Positions 1,350 to 7,335 of a stretch of DNA of 64,000 nucleotides are shown here, piece after piece. How positions within the stretch are numbered: position 1 is the first letter of the stretch; every line of letters begins with the position of its first letter. The position numbers and the translations under genes are program-made. The DNA comes from Bacteroidales bacterium (GTDB taxonomy: Bacteria > Bacteroidota > Bacteroidia > Bacteroidales > Tenuifilaceae), in NCBI GenBank assembly GCA_013141385.1, contig JABFRB010000002.1, forward strand, positions 310,001 to 374,000. Direction: 5' to 3'. The notes beneath the pieces were generated by a model. It was not told the DNA's origin. It did not search any database and worked only from the letters and a program-made list of their open reading frames with translations.

Positions 1350-3686
1350 ATGGAAAATGACATAATAAGAATTGTAGAAGAGAAGGGGAGAGCGGTTGAG
1401 GCGGTAATTCCAATTTTACAGGAAATCCAAAATCATTATAACTACCTTCCACAGGAGGCTTTACAAAGAGTTTGTGAAACAACGGATATCACTCCATCTA
1501 GGATATACGGTATATCTACATTCTATACACAGTTCAGGCATAAACCGGTAGGTAAACATATCATCAAGGTGTGCGTTGGAACTGCATGTCATGTTAAGGG
1601 TGCAATGCTTGTGTACGATTCTTTCCGACGAAATCTTAATTTAAAAGATAACGAGGATACCGATTCGGAAGGTCAATTCACCATCGAAAAGGTTGCTTGC
1701 TTAGGATGTTGTACAATTGCCCCTGTGGTTCAGATAGGTAGCATAACATACGGACATGTAACTTCTGAGACAGTTCCAGAAGTTATTTCAGATTTTCTTT
1801 TAGCAAAGAATGGACATTCTACTGGTGTTACTGTACCTTATATAGATAGTAAAGAGATTCAAGGCGAGATAAGAATTGGTTTAGGTTCATGTTGTGTTGC
1901 AAGTGGTAGTTCGGGAGTTAAAGAGGAACTTGAGAAAATACTTCTTAAGAGTAAGATAAATGTAAACGTTAAACACGTTGGATGTGTTGGTATTTGTAAT
2001 CAGGTGCCAATGCTTGAGGTTCATAAACCGGGAGAATCGCCATCATATTACACTAAAATTAAACCCGATGAGGTTAGAGAGGTAATTCATCGTCATTTTA
2101 AGCCTCACAACCTATTTAGCAGGATAAAGAGCAATGTTTATAGTTTCTTTGAGGACTTAGTATTTGACAGTGCGCCAAAATCACTTCGACGATACTCATC
2201 AGAAAATACGGATACTCCAGTTGCTGAATTTCTTCAAGGGCAGATTAATATTGCAACTGAGCATAGAGGGGTTATCAAACCTAGTGATATCAAAGAATAT
2301 AAAAAACTGGGTGGATTTAGTGCATTAGGCATATGCCTAAAAGTTAAAACTCCATCAGAGGTTATAGATATAATCAAGGGTAGTGGTCTGAGGGGAAGGG
2401 GTGGAGCAGGTTTCCCTACGGGTACTAAATGGCAATTGGTAGCGAATGCAGTTTCGGATAAGAAGTATGTTATCTGTAATGGTGACGAGGGCGATCCTGG
2501 TGCTTTTATGGATAGAATGCTACTTGAATCATACCCATTTAGGGTGATTGAAGGAATCATAATAGCGGCCTATGCCGTTGGTGCAAGTGAGGGATTATTC
2601 TACATTAGAGCTGAATACCCGTTGGCATTGATTCGGATACGTGAAGCATTAAGTATTTGCGAAAAAGAAGGTCTTCTTGGCAAAAACATTCTTGGAACCA
2701 ATTTTTCGTTTAACCTAAAAATCTTCGAGGGAGCTGGGGCTTTTGTTTGCGGTGAGGAGACAGCATTAATTGCTTCTGTTGAGGGTAAGCGGGGTTATCC
2801 AACAATGCGTCCACCTTACCCTGCCAACGAAGGACTCAGGGGAAAACCAACTTTGATAAACAATGTTGAAACCTATTCCATGGTTTCGTGGATTATTAGG
2901 AATAGTGCGGAATCATTTCATAATATTGGAACAAAATTCAGTAAAGGAACTAAAGTTTTTGCGCTTGCAGGTAAGATAAATCGCGGTGGTTTGATTGAAG
3001 TTCCCATGGGAATTACAATTAGAAAAATTGTTGAGGACATTGGAGGTGGTATTCCTAATGGAAAGCAATTTAAGGCTGTTCAGATTGGTGGCCCATCTGG
3101 GGGATGCATTCCTGCCTCAATGGCAGATACTCCAATTGACTATCACTCATTAATACAGGTTGGCGCGATGATGGGTTCTGGAGGTCTTATTGTACTGGAT
3201 GAGACCGATTGTATGGTTGATATCGCAAGATATTTCCTAACCTTTACCCAAGACCAATCATGTGGAAGGTGCACATTCTGTCGCATAGGTACAAGAAGAA
3301 TGCTTGAGATTCTCAATAAGATAACTAGTGGAAAGGGAACTTTAGCTGATTTAGATACACTGGAGAAACTTGCAGCGAGTACAAAGAGAGGCAGTATCTG
3401 CGGGTTAGGTAAAAGTGCTCCGAATCCAGTACTCACAACACTAAAGTATTTTAGGGATGAGTACGAGGCGCATATCAATGGTCATTGCCCAACGGGTAAG
3501 TGTAAGGAGATGATTACATACGATATCACCAATGAGTGTATTGGCTGCACAAAATGTGCACAGCGATGCCCATCGGATGCAATCAAAGCAAAACCTTACG
3601 AATTGCACCATATCGATACCGAGAAATGTATTAAATGTGATATATGCAGGGAGGTTTGCCCTGTGAATGCTGTAATAACAAAGTGA
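1350..3686 (+). CDS. NuoE-NuoF fusion, NADH-oxidising iron-sulfur flavoprotein (HydC/HydB-like)
   Basis: Cytoplasmic electron-input module expected to oxidise NADH on FMN. Domains in order: a NuoE/HydC thioredoxin-like [2Fe-2S] domain (residues 1-150; Cys75, Cys80, Cys117, Cys121 in the C-x4-C and C-x3-C pattern); a second thioredoxin-like [2Fe-2S] domain as at the N-terminus of HydB (about 172-250; Cys181/182, Cys212, Cys216); the NuoF FMN/NADH core (GLRGRGGAGFPTGTKW at 346-361, NGDEGDPGAFMDR near 377-389); the N3-type [4Fe-4S] motif SCGRCTFC near 640 with a further Cys in SICGLG; and a C-terminal two-[4Fe-4S] ferredoxin (CIGCTKCAQRC, CIKCDICREVC). NuoE and NuoF are normally separate proteins, so this is a fusion. 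The layout matches HydB/BfuB-type subunits of electron-bifurcating complexes, but no hydrogenase or formate dehydrogenase catalytic subunit is visible nearby. The probable partner is the FAD protein at 4166, beyond an inserted small gene. Confidence 0.93.
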   Translation: MENDIIRIVEEKGRAVEAVIPILQEIQNHYNYLPQEALQRVCETTDITPSRIYGISTFYTQFRHKPVGKHIIKVCVGTACHVKGAMLVYDSFRRNLNLKDNEDTDSEGQFTIEKVACLGCCTIAPVVQIGSITYGHVTSETVPEVISDFLLAKNGHSTGVTVPYIDSKEIQGEIRIGLGSCCVASGSSGVKEELEKILLKSKINVNVKHVGCVGICNQVPMLEVHKPGESPSYYTKIKPDEVREVIHRHFKPHNLFSRIKSNVYSFFEDLVFDSAPKSLRRYSSENTDTPVAEFLQGQINIATEHRGVIKPSDIKEYKKLGGFSALGICLKVKTPSEVIDIIKGSGLRGRGGAGFPTGTKWQLVANAVSDKKYVICNGDEGDPGAFMDRMLLESYPFRVIEGIIIAAYAVGASEGLFYIRAEYPLALIRIREALSICEKEGLLGKNILGTNFSFNLKIFEGAGAFVCGEETALIASVEGKRGYPTMRPPYPANEGLRGKPTLINNVETYSMVSWIIRNSAESFHNIGTKFSKGTKVFALAGKINRGGLIEVPMGITIRKIVEDIGGGIPNGKQFKAVQIGGPSGGCIPASMADTPIDYHSLIQVGAMMGSGGLIVLDETDCMVDIARYFLTFTQDQSCGRCTFCRIGTRRMLEILNKITSGKGTLADLDTLEKLAASTKRGSICGLGKSAPNPVLTTLKYFRDEYEAHINGHCPTGKCKEMITYDITNECIGCTKCAQRCPSDAIKAKPYELHHIDTEKCIKCDICREVCPVNAVITK

Positions 3687-3694
3687 AGAATAAT

Positions 3695-3764
3695 GAACAA
3701 GGATTAACGAATGATGAATGTAGAAGTGGCAGATCATCATTCTTAAATCGTTAATCCTTGTTCT
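3695..3764. repeat. perfect 16-bp inverted repeat, family A, ahead of IVP gene
   Basis: The arms GAACAAGGATTAACGA (3695-3710) and TCGTTAATCCTTGTTC (3749-3764) are exact reverse complements. A second inner pair, AATGATG/CATCATT, extends the hairpin. The same sequence family recurs at 7359-7438 and 12902-12942. The hairpin ends 16 bp before the start of the four-helix-bundle gene. Confidence 0.9.
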
Positions 3765-3780
3765 TAAATCAAAATAAGAA

Positions 3781-4165: not shown

Positions 4166-5734
4166 ATGATTCATCTAAAAATAAATAACCAAGCAATTAC
4201 AGTTCCTGCTGGAACTAGCGTCCTTAATGCTGCTAAGTCAATTGGGGTTGATATTCCTACAATGTGTTATCTCCAGGGAAATAGCAATCATCCATCGTGT
4301 ATGGTTTGCATTGTAAAGGATATAAGATCAGGGACTCTATTCCCTTCATGTGCCATGCCTGTAGAACAAGAAATGGATATCATTACCAATGATGACGATG
4401 TTCGGAATGCCCGCAAGGATGCACTTGAACTGCTACTCAGCGACCATGTTGGCGATTGTGAGGCTCCATGCCGAACAGCTTGCCCTGCATTTATGGATAT
4501 CCCACAAATGAATAGGCTTATCGCTCAAGGTAAACATCTTGATGCGTTAAGAGTTGTGAAAGAGGAGATAGCACTGCCATTTATTTTAGGACATATCTGC
4601 TCAGCCCCATGCGAGAAGGTTTGTAGGAGAAAACAGGTTGATAATCCAGTATCTATTTGCCTTCTGAAAAGATTCACTGCTTTTAACGATTCTAAAAATC
4701 AATTAGCATTTCTACCAGAAAAAAATCAAACAACTAATAAAAGGATTGCAATTATTGGGGCAGGACCATCTGGCCTTGCTTGTGCATTCTATCTTTTAAA
4801 ACTTGGTCATAATTGTGTGATATTTGACTCAAAATTAGAAGCTGGGGGAACATTACTTCAGGTTTCTGAAAATGAGTTGCCCAAAGAGGTTTTGAAAGTT
4901 GAAGTAGATTTAATTAAAACCTATGGTGCTGAGTTCCGACTCAACACAACTATAACCCCAGAAATTATTAAGAATGAGATTAAAAACTCATTTAATGCAA
5001 TTGTGTTTGCAACGGGTGATATCACCAAATCAAATCTAAATGATTTTGGGTATAATGTTAGTAAAACAGGATTAGTAGCCGATTCAGATACTTATGCACT
5101 AGATGGAACAGGAGTATTTGCTTGTGGAAGTGTTTTACATCCTCTAAAAATGGCTGTTAAGGCTGTCGCACAGGGAAAGGAAGCAGCATTTTCGGTGCAT
5201 AAATTTTTAGGAGGGATACCTGTTTCTAATAGATATGATAGATTCAACTCCAAGTTTGGACTCCTTCAACCATCAGAGATTGCCGAATATTTAAAAGAAT
5301 CAATTGCTGATGATGTAATCACCCCCAAAGGAGGAAGATTGATAGGCTTTACAGCCGAAGAAGCAATGCTTGAGGCTAAGCGATGTATGCATTGTGATTG
5401 CCGCAAACCCGATACGTGTAAACTCAGGTTATATGCCGATGAGTATAAGATTGACAGAAAAAAGTATTCCTTAGGTGAGCGTAAAACCCTGAAAAAGCAC
5501 ATTCAACACGAGACAGTTGCTTATGAGCCTGAAAAGTGCATACGCTGTGGTCTTTGCATCGAAATAACATCCAAGAATAAAGAATTGACAGGCCTTACAT
5601 ATATCGGACGAGGCTTTGATGTTAGGGTGGATATTCCATTTAACCGGGAATTAAGCCAAGCTCTAACCCAAACTGCAAAAGATTGTGTTAATGCTTGTCC
5701 TACTGGAGCGATATCATTTAAAAAGCAAGAGTAA
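4166..5734 (+). CDS. iron-sulfur/FAD oxidoreductase, GltD-like but lacking the NAD(P) subdomain
   Basis: A 522-residue cytoplasmic redox protein. It begins with a NuoG/HydA-type [2Fe-2S] ferredoxin domain (Cys34, Cys45, Cys48, Cys62). A GltD-type N-terminal cysteine domain follows (Cys98, 102, 106 and Cys145, 149, 153). Then comes an FAD Rossmann motif, IIGAGPSGLA, near residue 196, and a C-terminal ferredoxin-like part with CMHCDC, CIRCGLC and CVNACPTGA. GltD, NfnB and SfrB proteins carry a second dinucleotide-binding subdomain for NAD(P)H between the FAD halves. Here the chain passes from the FATGDI strand to GVFACGSV within about 50 residues and no second GxGxxA motif is visible. I infer that it receives electrons from the NADH site of the NuoEF fusion rather than from its own nicotinamide site. 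The acceptor is unknown. Confidence 0.88.
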   Translation: MIHLKINNQAITVPAGTSVLNAAKSIGVDIPTMCYLQGNSNHPSCMVCIVKDIRSGTLFPSCAMPVEQEMDIITNDDDVRNARKDALELLLSDHVGDCEAPCRTACPAFMDIPQMNRLIAQGKHLDALRVVKEEIALPFILGHICSAPCEKVCRRKQVDNPVSICLLKRFTAFNDSKNQLAFLPEKNQTTNKRIAIIGAGPSGLACAFYLLKLGHNCVIFDSKLEAGGTLLQVSENELPKEVLKVEVDLIKTYGAEFRLNTTITPEIIKNEIKNSFNAIVFATGDITKSNLNDFGYNVSKTGLVADSDTYALDGTGVFACGSVLHPLKMAVKAVAQGKEAAFSVHKFLGGIPVSNRYDRFNSKFGLLQPSEIAEYLKESIADDVITPKGGRLIGFTAEEAMLEAKRCMHCDCRKPDTCKLRLYADEYKIDRKKYSLGERKTLKKHIQHETVAYEPEKCIRCGLCIEITSKNKELTGLTYIGRGFDVRVDIPFNRELSQALTQTAKDCVNACPTGAISFKKQE

Positions 5735-5773
5735 ATTAGTATGCTATTTTGCAGTAAATAAAGTAAATTCCGC

Positions 5774-5810
5774 ATCCCCTCCTTTTTTAAGGAGGGGCAG
5801 GGGAGGTAAA
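5774..5810 (+). repeat. left inverted repeat of DUF559 cassette
   Basis: Contains CCCCTCC and GGAGGGG arms around a TTTTTTAA core (5776-5797), then CAGGGGAGGTAAA. It matches the reverse complement of 6174-6209 apart from the loop and one base in GGAGG versus GGTGG. Confidence 0.85.
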
Positions 5811-5819
5811 TTTATCAAC

Positions 5820-6173
5820 ATGCAAGTTCATAATAGAAAAGAATTAAAAACTAATCGTAGAAATCTACGTTCCAATTTAACTCCTGCTGTGATAAGATTA
5901 TGGAAATGTCTTCAAAACAAACAACTTGATGGCAGAAAATTTAGACGTCAACATAGTATTGGTAATTACATTGTAGATTTTTATTGCTCAGAAGAAAAGA
6001 TCGCCATAGAATTGGATGGTGATGTTCACTTTAATCCAGTGAACGAAAAATATGATATTCAACGGGATGATTATATTAAATCATTAGAAATAAAGGTTAT
6101 TCGTTTTCGAAATTGTGAGGTTTTTGAAAATATTGACAATATTTTAAATGGAATACGGGAGTGTTTTAAATAG
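5820..6173 (+). CDS. DUF559 family, Vsr-like endonuclease domain protein
   Basis: A 117-residue protein of the DUF559 family, which has the restriction-endonuclease-like fold of very-short-patch-repair (Vsr) endonucleases. Family landmarks are LTPAVIRLWKCLQ near the N-terminus, FRRQHSIGNYIVDFYC, the acidic strand AIELDGDVHF (Asp53, Glu64 and Asp66 as likely metal ligands, His70) and VIRFRNCEV followed by an Asn-rich end. The frame extends upstream to a TTG inside the preceding gene, but that part translates the repeat. The ATG at 5820 matches the usual N-terminus of the family and is preferred. Function in this family is not established; a nicking or repair-type nuclease is likely from the fold. 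The gene fills the space between two inverted repeats, so it may act on them. Confidence 0.88.
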   Translation: MQVHNRKELKTNRRNLRSNLTPAVIRLWKCLQNKQLDGRKFRRQHSIGNYIVDFYCSEEKIAIELDGDVHFNPVNEKYDIQRDDYIKSLEIKVIRFRNCEVFENIDNILNGIRECFK

Positions 6174-6209
6174 TTTACCACCCCTGCCCCTCCTAAAATA
6201 GGAGGGGAT
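6174..6209 (-). repeat. right inverted repeat of DUF559 cassette
   Basis: Starts immediately after the DUF559 stop codon. It contains a small hairpin of its own, CCCCTCCT (6187-6194) and AGGAGGGG (6200-6207) with a five-base loop, and is the inverted counterpart of 5774-5810. Confidence 0.85.
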
Positions 6210-6231
6210 ACAAGCAACAAAGTTATTTTAT

Positions 6232-7335
6232 ATGAGATATTTAGTAATTGTATTTTTATTCTTGAATCAAATTTTAGATGCTCAGGATAACTCCAATTGG
6301 CCATGCTTTAGAGGCAATCCATCACTTACAGGTTATTCGAACGTGCAGCTACCAAAAACACTAAAGTTGCTATGGACATTCAAAACCGAGGATGCAATTA
6401 AATCATCACCAATAATTCAAAATGGCAGTATCTACATCGGCTCAAACGATGGTTATATCTACTCAATCTCTGATAAAGGGGTATTGAATTGGAAATACAA
6501 GTCGGCCACATCAATTGAATCACCTCCTCTTTATCTTGATAATACTATTTATGCTGGTTCGCTTGAGGGTACAGTATATGCATTAGAGGCAAAAACAGGT
6601 AAATTGAAATGGGAGTATAAAACCGAAGGTCAAATCTCAGGCTCGGTAAACTGGGTGATATCTCCAGATAAAAAGAGTAAGAGGCTTTTTGTTGGAAGCT
6701 ATGATTTTAACTTTCATTGTATTGATGCTGCTACTGGCAAATCGGCCTTTAAGTTCGAAACCGAAAATTATATCAATGGAACACCATCAAGTAATGGAGA
6801 ACTATCTGTTTTTGGTGGTTGTGATGGGAATTTATATCTATTAAATGTTAACACGGAGAAACTTGATAGTAAAATTGAAATAGGAACCTATATGGCTGCA
6901 TCCACCGCAATTGATGGGGGTAGAGCATATTTTAGTAATTACGATGGTAAAGTTTATTGTGTAGATTTAGCCTCAAAAAAAAATATATGGAAATATGATG
7001 GAACTGCCCCATCTATCTCCTCTCCAGCAGTTTCCGGTGATAGAGTTGTTATAGGCTCACAGGATAAAAACGTTTACTGTTTCGAGAAATTAACAGGAAA
7101 ACTGCTATGGAAATTTAAAACGTTGGGTAAAGTGGATAGCTCACCAGTAATTGCAAGGGATGTAGTAGTGGTAGGTTCGGGCGATGGACGAATTTATATG
7201 ATAGATTTGAACAAAGGTGAAAAAATTTGGTCTTACGAGATAGGAAAACCCATTACCAGTTCGCCAGCAGTTATTAAGAACATGGTAGTTATTGGTTCGG
7301 AGGATGGGAGTGTTTATGCTTTTGGGATAAAATGA
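6232..7335 (+). CDS. exported PQQ-like beta-propeller protein
   Basis: A 367-residue protein with an N-terminal signal peptide (hydrophobic residues 2-14, cleavage near LDAQ) followed almost at once by a complete PQQ-like propeller. Blades carry the regular pattern G.(L/V)(L/N)WK(Y/F)K followed by SSP and V(V/I)GS.DG.(I/V)Y, for example LLWTFKTEDAIKSSP, LKWEYKTEGQISGS and IWSYEIGKPITSSP. Most closely it resembles outer-membrane-assembly-like (BamB-type) or PQQ-binding-like repeat proteins. Catalytic quinoprotein residues cannot be identified, so a binding or scaffold role in the periplasm is the safest call. It is one of four propeller genes of this kind in the window. Confidence 0.9.
   Translation: MRYLVIVFLFLNQILDAQDNSNWPCFRGNPSLTGYSNVQLPKTLKLLWTFKTEDAIKSSPIIQNGSIYIGSNDGYIYSISDKGVLNWKYKSATSIESPPLYLDNTIYAGSLEGTVYALEAKTGKLKWEYKTEGQISGSVNWVISPDKKSKRLFVGSYDFNFHCIDAATGKSAFKFETENYINGTPSSNGELSVFGGCDGNLYLLNVNTEKLDSKIEIGTYMAASTAIDGGRAYFSNYDGKVYCVDLASKKNIWKYDGTAPSISSPAVSGDRVVIGSQDKNVYCFEKLTGKLLWKFKTLGKVDSSPVIARDVVVVGSGDGRIYMIDLNKGEKIWSYEIGKPITSSPAVIKNMVVIGSEDGSVYAFGIK

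Follow-up and report, generated by a model that had tools for sequence, protein, structure and literature searches.

A 436-bp stretch in the window analysed here (64 kb, the whole of the DNA under study) carries a DUF559/YcjD nuclease gene between inverted repeats with the make-up of triplex-forming motifs, and is, on balance, best regarded as a minimal REPtron-like unit. The association between DUF559 genes and repeats of this kind is real, with hardly any room for doubt.

A DUF559 gene enclosed by inverted repeats

The 117-residue frame that an earlier note on this DNA had assigned to DUF559 scores 107.4 bits against Pfam PF04480 in a profile search (cut-off 20.6). Spacing is as tight as had been described, the left end stopping 9 bp before the ATG and the right end following directly on the stop codon (Table 1). 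The inverted arms at 5777-5810 and 6174-6207, each of 34 nt, show 82% complementarity without gaps and become nearly identical if a gap is allowed for their hairpin loops, which differ in length by one base; the ends are inverted copies of one 36-38 bp element. Folded alone as single-stranded DNA, they reach -9.7 and -9.0 kcal/mol (z about -3.3), and these folds, together with the arm alignment, bear out the near-identical, hairpin-bearing ends reported earlier. A 17-nt core of the end occurs at three places in the window with up to 3 mismatches, against 0.02 expected, and two of the three are the cassette ends. Intact frames lie on either side (4166-5734 and 6232-7335), and the location is not that of an intron or intein.

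Table 1. Features of the DUF559 cassette (positions in the window)
Feature	Position	Strand	Details
Whole cassette	5774..6209	.	436 bp; DUF559 gene between inverted ends
Left end, potential intrastrand-triplex motif	5774..5811	+	C-stem 5776-5784, loop 5785-5788, G-stem 5789-5797
Left end, rest		+	second loop 5798-5799, mirror third strand 5800-5808
DUF559 (PF04480) nuclease gene	5820..6173	+	117 aa plus stop; stop codon 6171-6173
Right end, inverted motif copy	6174..6209	-	C-stem 6207-6200, loop 6199-6195, G-stem 6194-6187
Right end, rest		-	second loop 6186-6185, third strand 6184-6177

Elsewhere in the window, a gene for a 23S rRNA-intervening-sequence protein (PF05635, 3781-4155) is closely preceded by an AT-rich inverted repeat, GAACAAGGATTAACGA with its complement, in the upstream region 3690-3770. 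Possibly, this is another small gene paired with a repeat.

The ends as potential triplex motifs

Read 5' to 3', each end has a CCCCTCC stem that a loop separates from GGAGGGG, and after two more bases comes GGGG(A/T)GG. This third block mirrors the G-stem and places A or T directly across from the A-T pair; purine-motif triplexes allow either base at that place. A scanner for this arrangement (a C-stem and a G-stem separated by a loop, then a second loop and the mirror third strand), tolerating 1 mismatch at most, found only the two cassette ends in the window, both with 0 mismatches, and nothing in ten shuffled windows. Judged by their sequence, both ends are perfect potential intrastrand-triplex motifs of the general class. 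The hairpins seen in the earlier note stand; the third, mirror-image G-run and the BoxC/triplex class had gone unrecognised there. Repeats of the E. coli BoxC/PIT/TM group form intrastrand triplexes in vitro, the BoxC/TM_ECO consensus being CCCTCNCCCN3-6GGGNGAGGGN3GGGNGAGGG (PMC4666352), and the window ends, with CCCCTCC stems and a 2-nt second loop, fall outside this strict consensus. The accessible text of that report proposes no partner gene for the E. coli repeats, and its authors stated in 2015 that mobility activities were never found around BoxC/PIT/TM sites (PMC4666352).

The strong hairpin in each end might also be taken for one of a pair of transcription terminators, or for a product of chance or base composition, but this is scarcely credible. 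Terminators were rejected on the stems, which are not followed by a T-run and do have a third strand, and E. coli PIT elements are described, in the accessible part of their report, as free of promoter or terminator activity (PMC4666352). Chance and base composition were rejected on letter shuffles, which keep base content and not dinucleotides, and on neighbouring ORFs: the motif is missing from nearly all of the former and from the latter.

Protein fold and family

The predicted model of the window protein (mean pLDDT 88.7) matches the DUF559 structure 3hrl with Z 15.3 and an rmsd of 0.9 over 90 residues in a structure search. Next come the homing endonuclease I-Bth0305I (3r3p, Z 11.4, with a sequence-profile match at E 2.1e-7) and Vsr (1cw0, Z 9.8; 1vsr, Z 9.3), so that the Vsr-type fold attributed to DUF559 beforehand is upheld on the predicted model; TnsA, at Z 6.7, is within the range of common arrangements. 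Residues T21, D53, F54, E64, D66, H70 and D79 are invariant in 47 sequences, a pattern consistent with an active nuclease. DUF559 and YcjD have come up in earlier work, to the extent that the accessible parts of the sources tell: a YcjD profile was found to detect Vsr (PMC1189080), one DUF559 gene was assigned to the EDxHD family (PMC9403480), and segments of Legionella with a transposase and a DUF559 gene were reported as recombination hotspots (PMC12308824).

Association of DUF559 genes with the motif across bacteria

Standalone DUF559 genes were scored in two sets, relatives from the same order (79 domains, reduced to 66) and named genomes (84, reduced to 68; the best 80 of at least 587 matches), after loci without a stop codon, loci with less than 100 bp of flank and long frames had been dropped. 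The sets partly overlap, two apparently identical contigs being kept in both. The motif was found within 300 bp on at least one side at 57 of the 66 order relatives and 49 of the 68 named-genome cases, and on both sides at 35 and 24 of them, respectively, as against none of 37 neighbouring ORFs with flanks clear of the DUF559 flanks and 1 of 330 shuffles; under a stricter 210-aa limit on frame length, the motif counts are 56/64 and 49/67. An inverted repeat between the 300-bp flanks exceeds the 99% level of shuffles at 38/66 order relatives, compared with 3/84 neighbouring ORFs, and at 26/68 loci in named genomes. The motif scan is conservative, because several loci scored as negative have long related inverted repeats whose second loop contains additional sequence.

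The same pattern is evident in the phylum of Planktothrix, with the motif at 40 of 57 standalone DUF559 genes (both sides at 29; shuffles 0/285), and at four of six such genes in Myxococcota and Chloroflexota genomes. Summed over four sets, a downstream motif accompanies 109 of 194 standalone genes and 4 of 20 DUF559 domains in long frames. Several DUF559 genes have C-terminal tails such as NPLQRGN or PPAPFSKGE, which can be read as putatively encoded by the repeat. A literature search, with subscription papers and preprints outside its range, found no link of DUF559 or YcjD to BoxC or triplex repeats.

Repeat copies in the source genome

A loose core pattern with at most 2 mismatches matches 25 places in the source genome (G000), of which about 20-21 read as real copies, and four of the about 21 are the ends of two DUF559 cassettes. 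Taken alone this search proves little, because the reversed control gives 24 places; it is the flanking hairpins that carry the proof. A stricter general pattern gives 62 matches, with none in its reversed control. The search and count proposed in the earlier note place six of the 62 matches at DUF559 genes, no more than 350 bp from the domain, where 0.06 would be expected, and the ends are dispersed in the genome, whereas the proposal was to fall if they occurred nowhere else. By stem, 20 matches are of the window type, 29 are of the type that flanks a DUF559 gene on contig C3, and 13 belong to a third type resembling the end beside a DUF559 gene on contig C14.

Of the 62 matches, 36 have another within 600 bp, making 22 neighbouring pairs where 0.4 are expected and the maximum in 1000 random trials was 3. 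Nine pairs are inverted with heads outward, the C3 cassette among them; leaving that cassette aside, there are eight close inverted doublets with no gene inside. All three neighbouring inverted pairs lying 300-600 bp apart enclose DUF559, and no other gene is bracketed by the repeats among neighbouring pairs within 600 bp. Some solitary window-type copies form half of a doublet whose other half is of the C3 type, an arrangement that resembles the E. coli doublets of types A and B as reported in part of PMC4666352.

At a larger distance, two inverted matches 1.7 kb apart surround a 260-aa frame (G000:C26:79441-81176). Several solitary window-type copies (six loci in the source genome) share flanking sequence beyond the repeat on both sides (about 100 bp or more), and such copies often stand shortly before a start codon; a longer element may exist around them.

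Occupied and empty sites

A second cassette lies 10 kb away in the source genome (C2:305698-306130), with nearly identical ends and a DUF559 frame broken by a frame change, the later frame having N in place of the invariant His. At the gene junction of the window cassette itself, the cassette is present in G000 and G004 and absent from G002 and G003; in a comparison of occupied and empty sites for a target duplication, the flanks proved too diverged for the insertion to be read. The equivalent of window positions 5735-6231 contains different short repeats in the two cassette-free genomes, CGCTAAGAC/GACTTAGCG in G002 and CTCTGTG-type repeats in G003, so that the junction may be a favoured landing place.

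A broken cassette nearby, a junction occupied in two species and free in two, and the presence of I-Bth0305I among the closest solved structures after DUF559 itself are also what would be expected of a selfish gene acting in cis only, according to the logic of homing endonucleases. The nuclease would cut empty alleles or its own ends and only the cassette would spread, the dispersed repeats being decayed cassettes or by-products and not actively copied. We regard this account as unlikely in view of the repeats themselves, as only six of 62 matches are at DUF559 genes and eight close inverted doublets, besides the C3 cassette, contain no gene.

Co-variation and copy number

Ends and proteins were compared at the 31 of 59 loci whose inverted repeat is clear. 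For 12 pairs of proteins from different genomes that share at least 60% identity, end similarity averages 20.0, whereas same-genome paralogues less than 60% identical (15 pairs) are at background, with bin means of 9.3-9.8. A Mantel test of end similarity against protein identity gave a rho of 0.17, a value reached in 14 of 2000 permutations. As an example, the C3 gene of the source genome has its ends in common with a gene of another genome, G115, and not with its genome-mates. At these loci, the end type follows the protein and not the host genome.

Repeat number also goes with the gene. At least 4 general-pattern matches are present in 23 of 41 genomes that have a standalone gene, compared with 10 of 91 that lack the gene, 5 of 14 whose DUF559 domains are all fused and 1 of 2 that have fragments; in the phylum of Planktothrix, 45 of 74 genomes that match DUF559 strongly exceed the control by at least 4, as do 11 of 72 with a weak match or none. 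Neither these comparisons nor the samples of loci behind the association and co-variation are corrected for phylogeny, and both comparisons use genome classes assigned by hand from search results. Zero matches were found in 7 of the 41 genomes with a standalone gene. The ten repeat-rich genomes that lack the gene were searched more sensitively for an overlooked DUF559, and no clear standalone gene came up: six had weak hits (E up to 1) that were fragments or sections of long frames, and the best standalone candidate was a 191-aa frame in G054 (E 0.0098). The ten are real exceptions, with relics or other mobilisers as possible causes. A high frequency of ends at unrelated genes without any correlation to DUF559, which the earlier note had named as fatal to its proposal, is on average not what is seen, these ten genomes being the exceptions.

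Such exceptions are what a passenger would predict, that is, a DUF559 gene that is merely frequent cargo or a frequent neighbour of repeats that owe their spread to recombination or to an unrelated transposase, and cutting by DUF559 is itself a proposal. A passenger is nevertheless quite improbable given the absence of the motif from all 37 neighbouring ORFs and the recurrence of the association in a second phylum, that of Planktothrix.

Repeats in genomes without DUF559 could also be explained if the protein were a repair or guard enzyme, Vsr-like or structure-specific, acting on mismatches or on folds of this kind, beside regulatory repeats made by other machinery or by replication slippage. 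The Vsr fold (Z 9.8) agrees with such a role, as does Caulobacter VsrA, a protein with a DUF559 domain: according to the accessible text of its report, a methyltransferase mutant depends on VsrA for its SOS response, and a part in mismatch repair is proposed for the protein (PMC12907096). The end type, however, changes with the paralogue inside one genome, bracketing by inverted repeats on two sides is frequent, and repeats are more numerous where the gene is present, which together make such a role unlikely.

ycjD and BoxC in E. coli

The DUF559 gene of E. coli is ycjD, located between sapF and fabI in about 3362-3364 of 5426 complete genomes. In four strains without ycjD that were opened, an efflux gene is found at the locus instead, and eefRABCD is reported at this place in the accessible part of PMC12817139. 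A BoxC-like hairpin carries the ycjD stop codon within its loop or at it, and the motif of this hairpin is complete in strain KK19-02 and eroded in K-12; the published TM_ECO 9 sits between ycjD and fabI, and the K-12 gene has a complete triplex motif on its 3' side only.

BoxC-like places were counted, with the ycjD locus itself included, in 59 chromosomes taken at even listing steps (one plasmid-sized row dropped). The 37 chromosomes with ycjD have 14-31 such places (median 22) and the 22 without it 2-23 (median 6.5), a difference of which strain lineage probably explains part. Strains of O157:H7 have about 15 BoxC places without ycjD, which, like the one-sided motif in K-12, counts against the proposed pairing. 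Three of five BoxC regions were searched for polymorphism, and at these three sites the repeat is present or absent between strains; no clear target duplication was apparent there, the junctions being replaced or shortened. At hrpB-mrcB, the sequence separating the two members of a BoxC doublet has been lost from one O111 strain, which retains one hybrid palindrome.

The gene ycjD is a candidate partner carried by E. coli K-12 itself, so that the question becomes testable in a laboratory strain.

Proposed mechanism and comparison with known systems

By analogy, the best reading of the window cassette is that it works like a REPtron, outside the RAYT/REP group in that enzyme and repeat class both differ. 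The earlier note had likened nuclease and ends to a RAYT/REP pair; the association has held up (dispersal, several phyla, co-variation and repeat richness), and action on the ends stays a proposal. We infer binding and cutting, and it is probable that the DUF559 protein acts on the repeats in this way. That it also spreads them, which would include copying or mobilisation, is somewhat less secure and still the favoured view. The nuclease would recognise its own repeat type, probably as a hairpin or triplex fold in single-stranded DNA at a fork, and would nick or cut at the repeat or at the target. Repair copying would then put copies into new intergenic sites, as single repeats, as inverted doublets or as the complete cassette, presumably without a duplicated target. 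The widest claim, that DUF559/YcjD nucleases drive the widespread intrastrand-triplex repeats, which comprise BoxC and, in other phyla, its counterparts, as a new class of parasites or domesticated elements, is evenly poised. If the nuclease moves the repeats, there is a case for such a new class; pairs of enzyme and repeat in the style of RAYT/REP would then have arisen at least twice with unrelated enzymes, and a role would be at hand for DUF559, a nuclease family still named for its "unknown function".

The closest parallel is with RAYT (TnpA_REP) and its REP and REPIN sequences. In both systems a small enzyme gene is flanked by inverted copies of a dispersed palindrome, the copies occur between genes as singlets and inverted doublets, and the repeat type co-varies with the enzyme, as described for REP in the accessible parts of PMC8266576, PMC3116915 and PMC3733652. 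The REP enzyme, in contrast, is a HuH tyrosine transposase and the window enzyme a DUF559 nuclease with a Vsr-type fold, and the triplex-motif repeats of the window have no GTAG or CGTC tag abutting palindromes. With the BoxC/PIT/TM_ECO repeats of E. coli, the window ends have in common the order of C-stem, loop, G-stem, short loop and mirror third strand, and also the intergenic, dispersed occurrence with inverted doublets of two types (PMC4666352, accessible text); they differ in their stems, their 2-nt second loop and the enclosed gene. Insertion sequences and MITEs likewise have inverted ends around one gene and short dispersed relatives, but the cassette has a DUF559 nuclease and no transposase, and target duplication was unseen at the three E. 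coli BoxC sites. The EDxHD homing endonuclease I-Bth0305I resembles the window protein in fold and sequence profile, whereas the window gene is intergenic, bounded by repeats and outside any intron or intein. Finally, the window protein has the fold of Vsr, and Caulobacter VsrA has the DUF559 domain (PMC12907096, accessible text); unlike them, the window gene forms a cassette with repeats as its boundaries.
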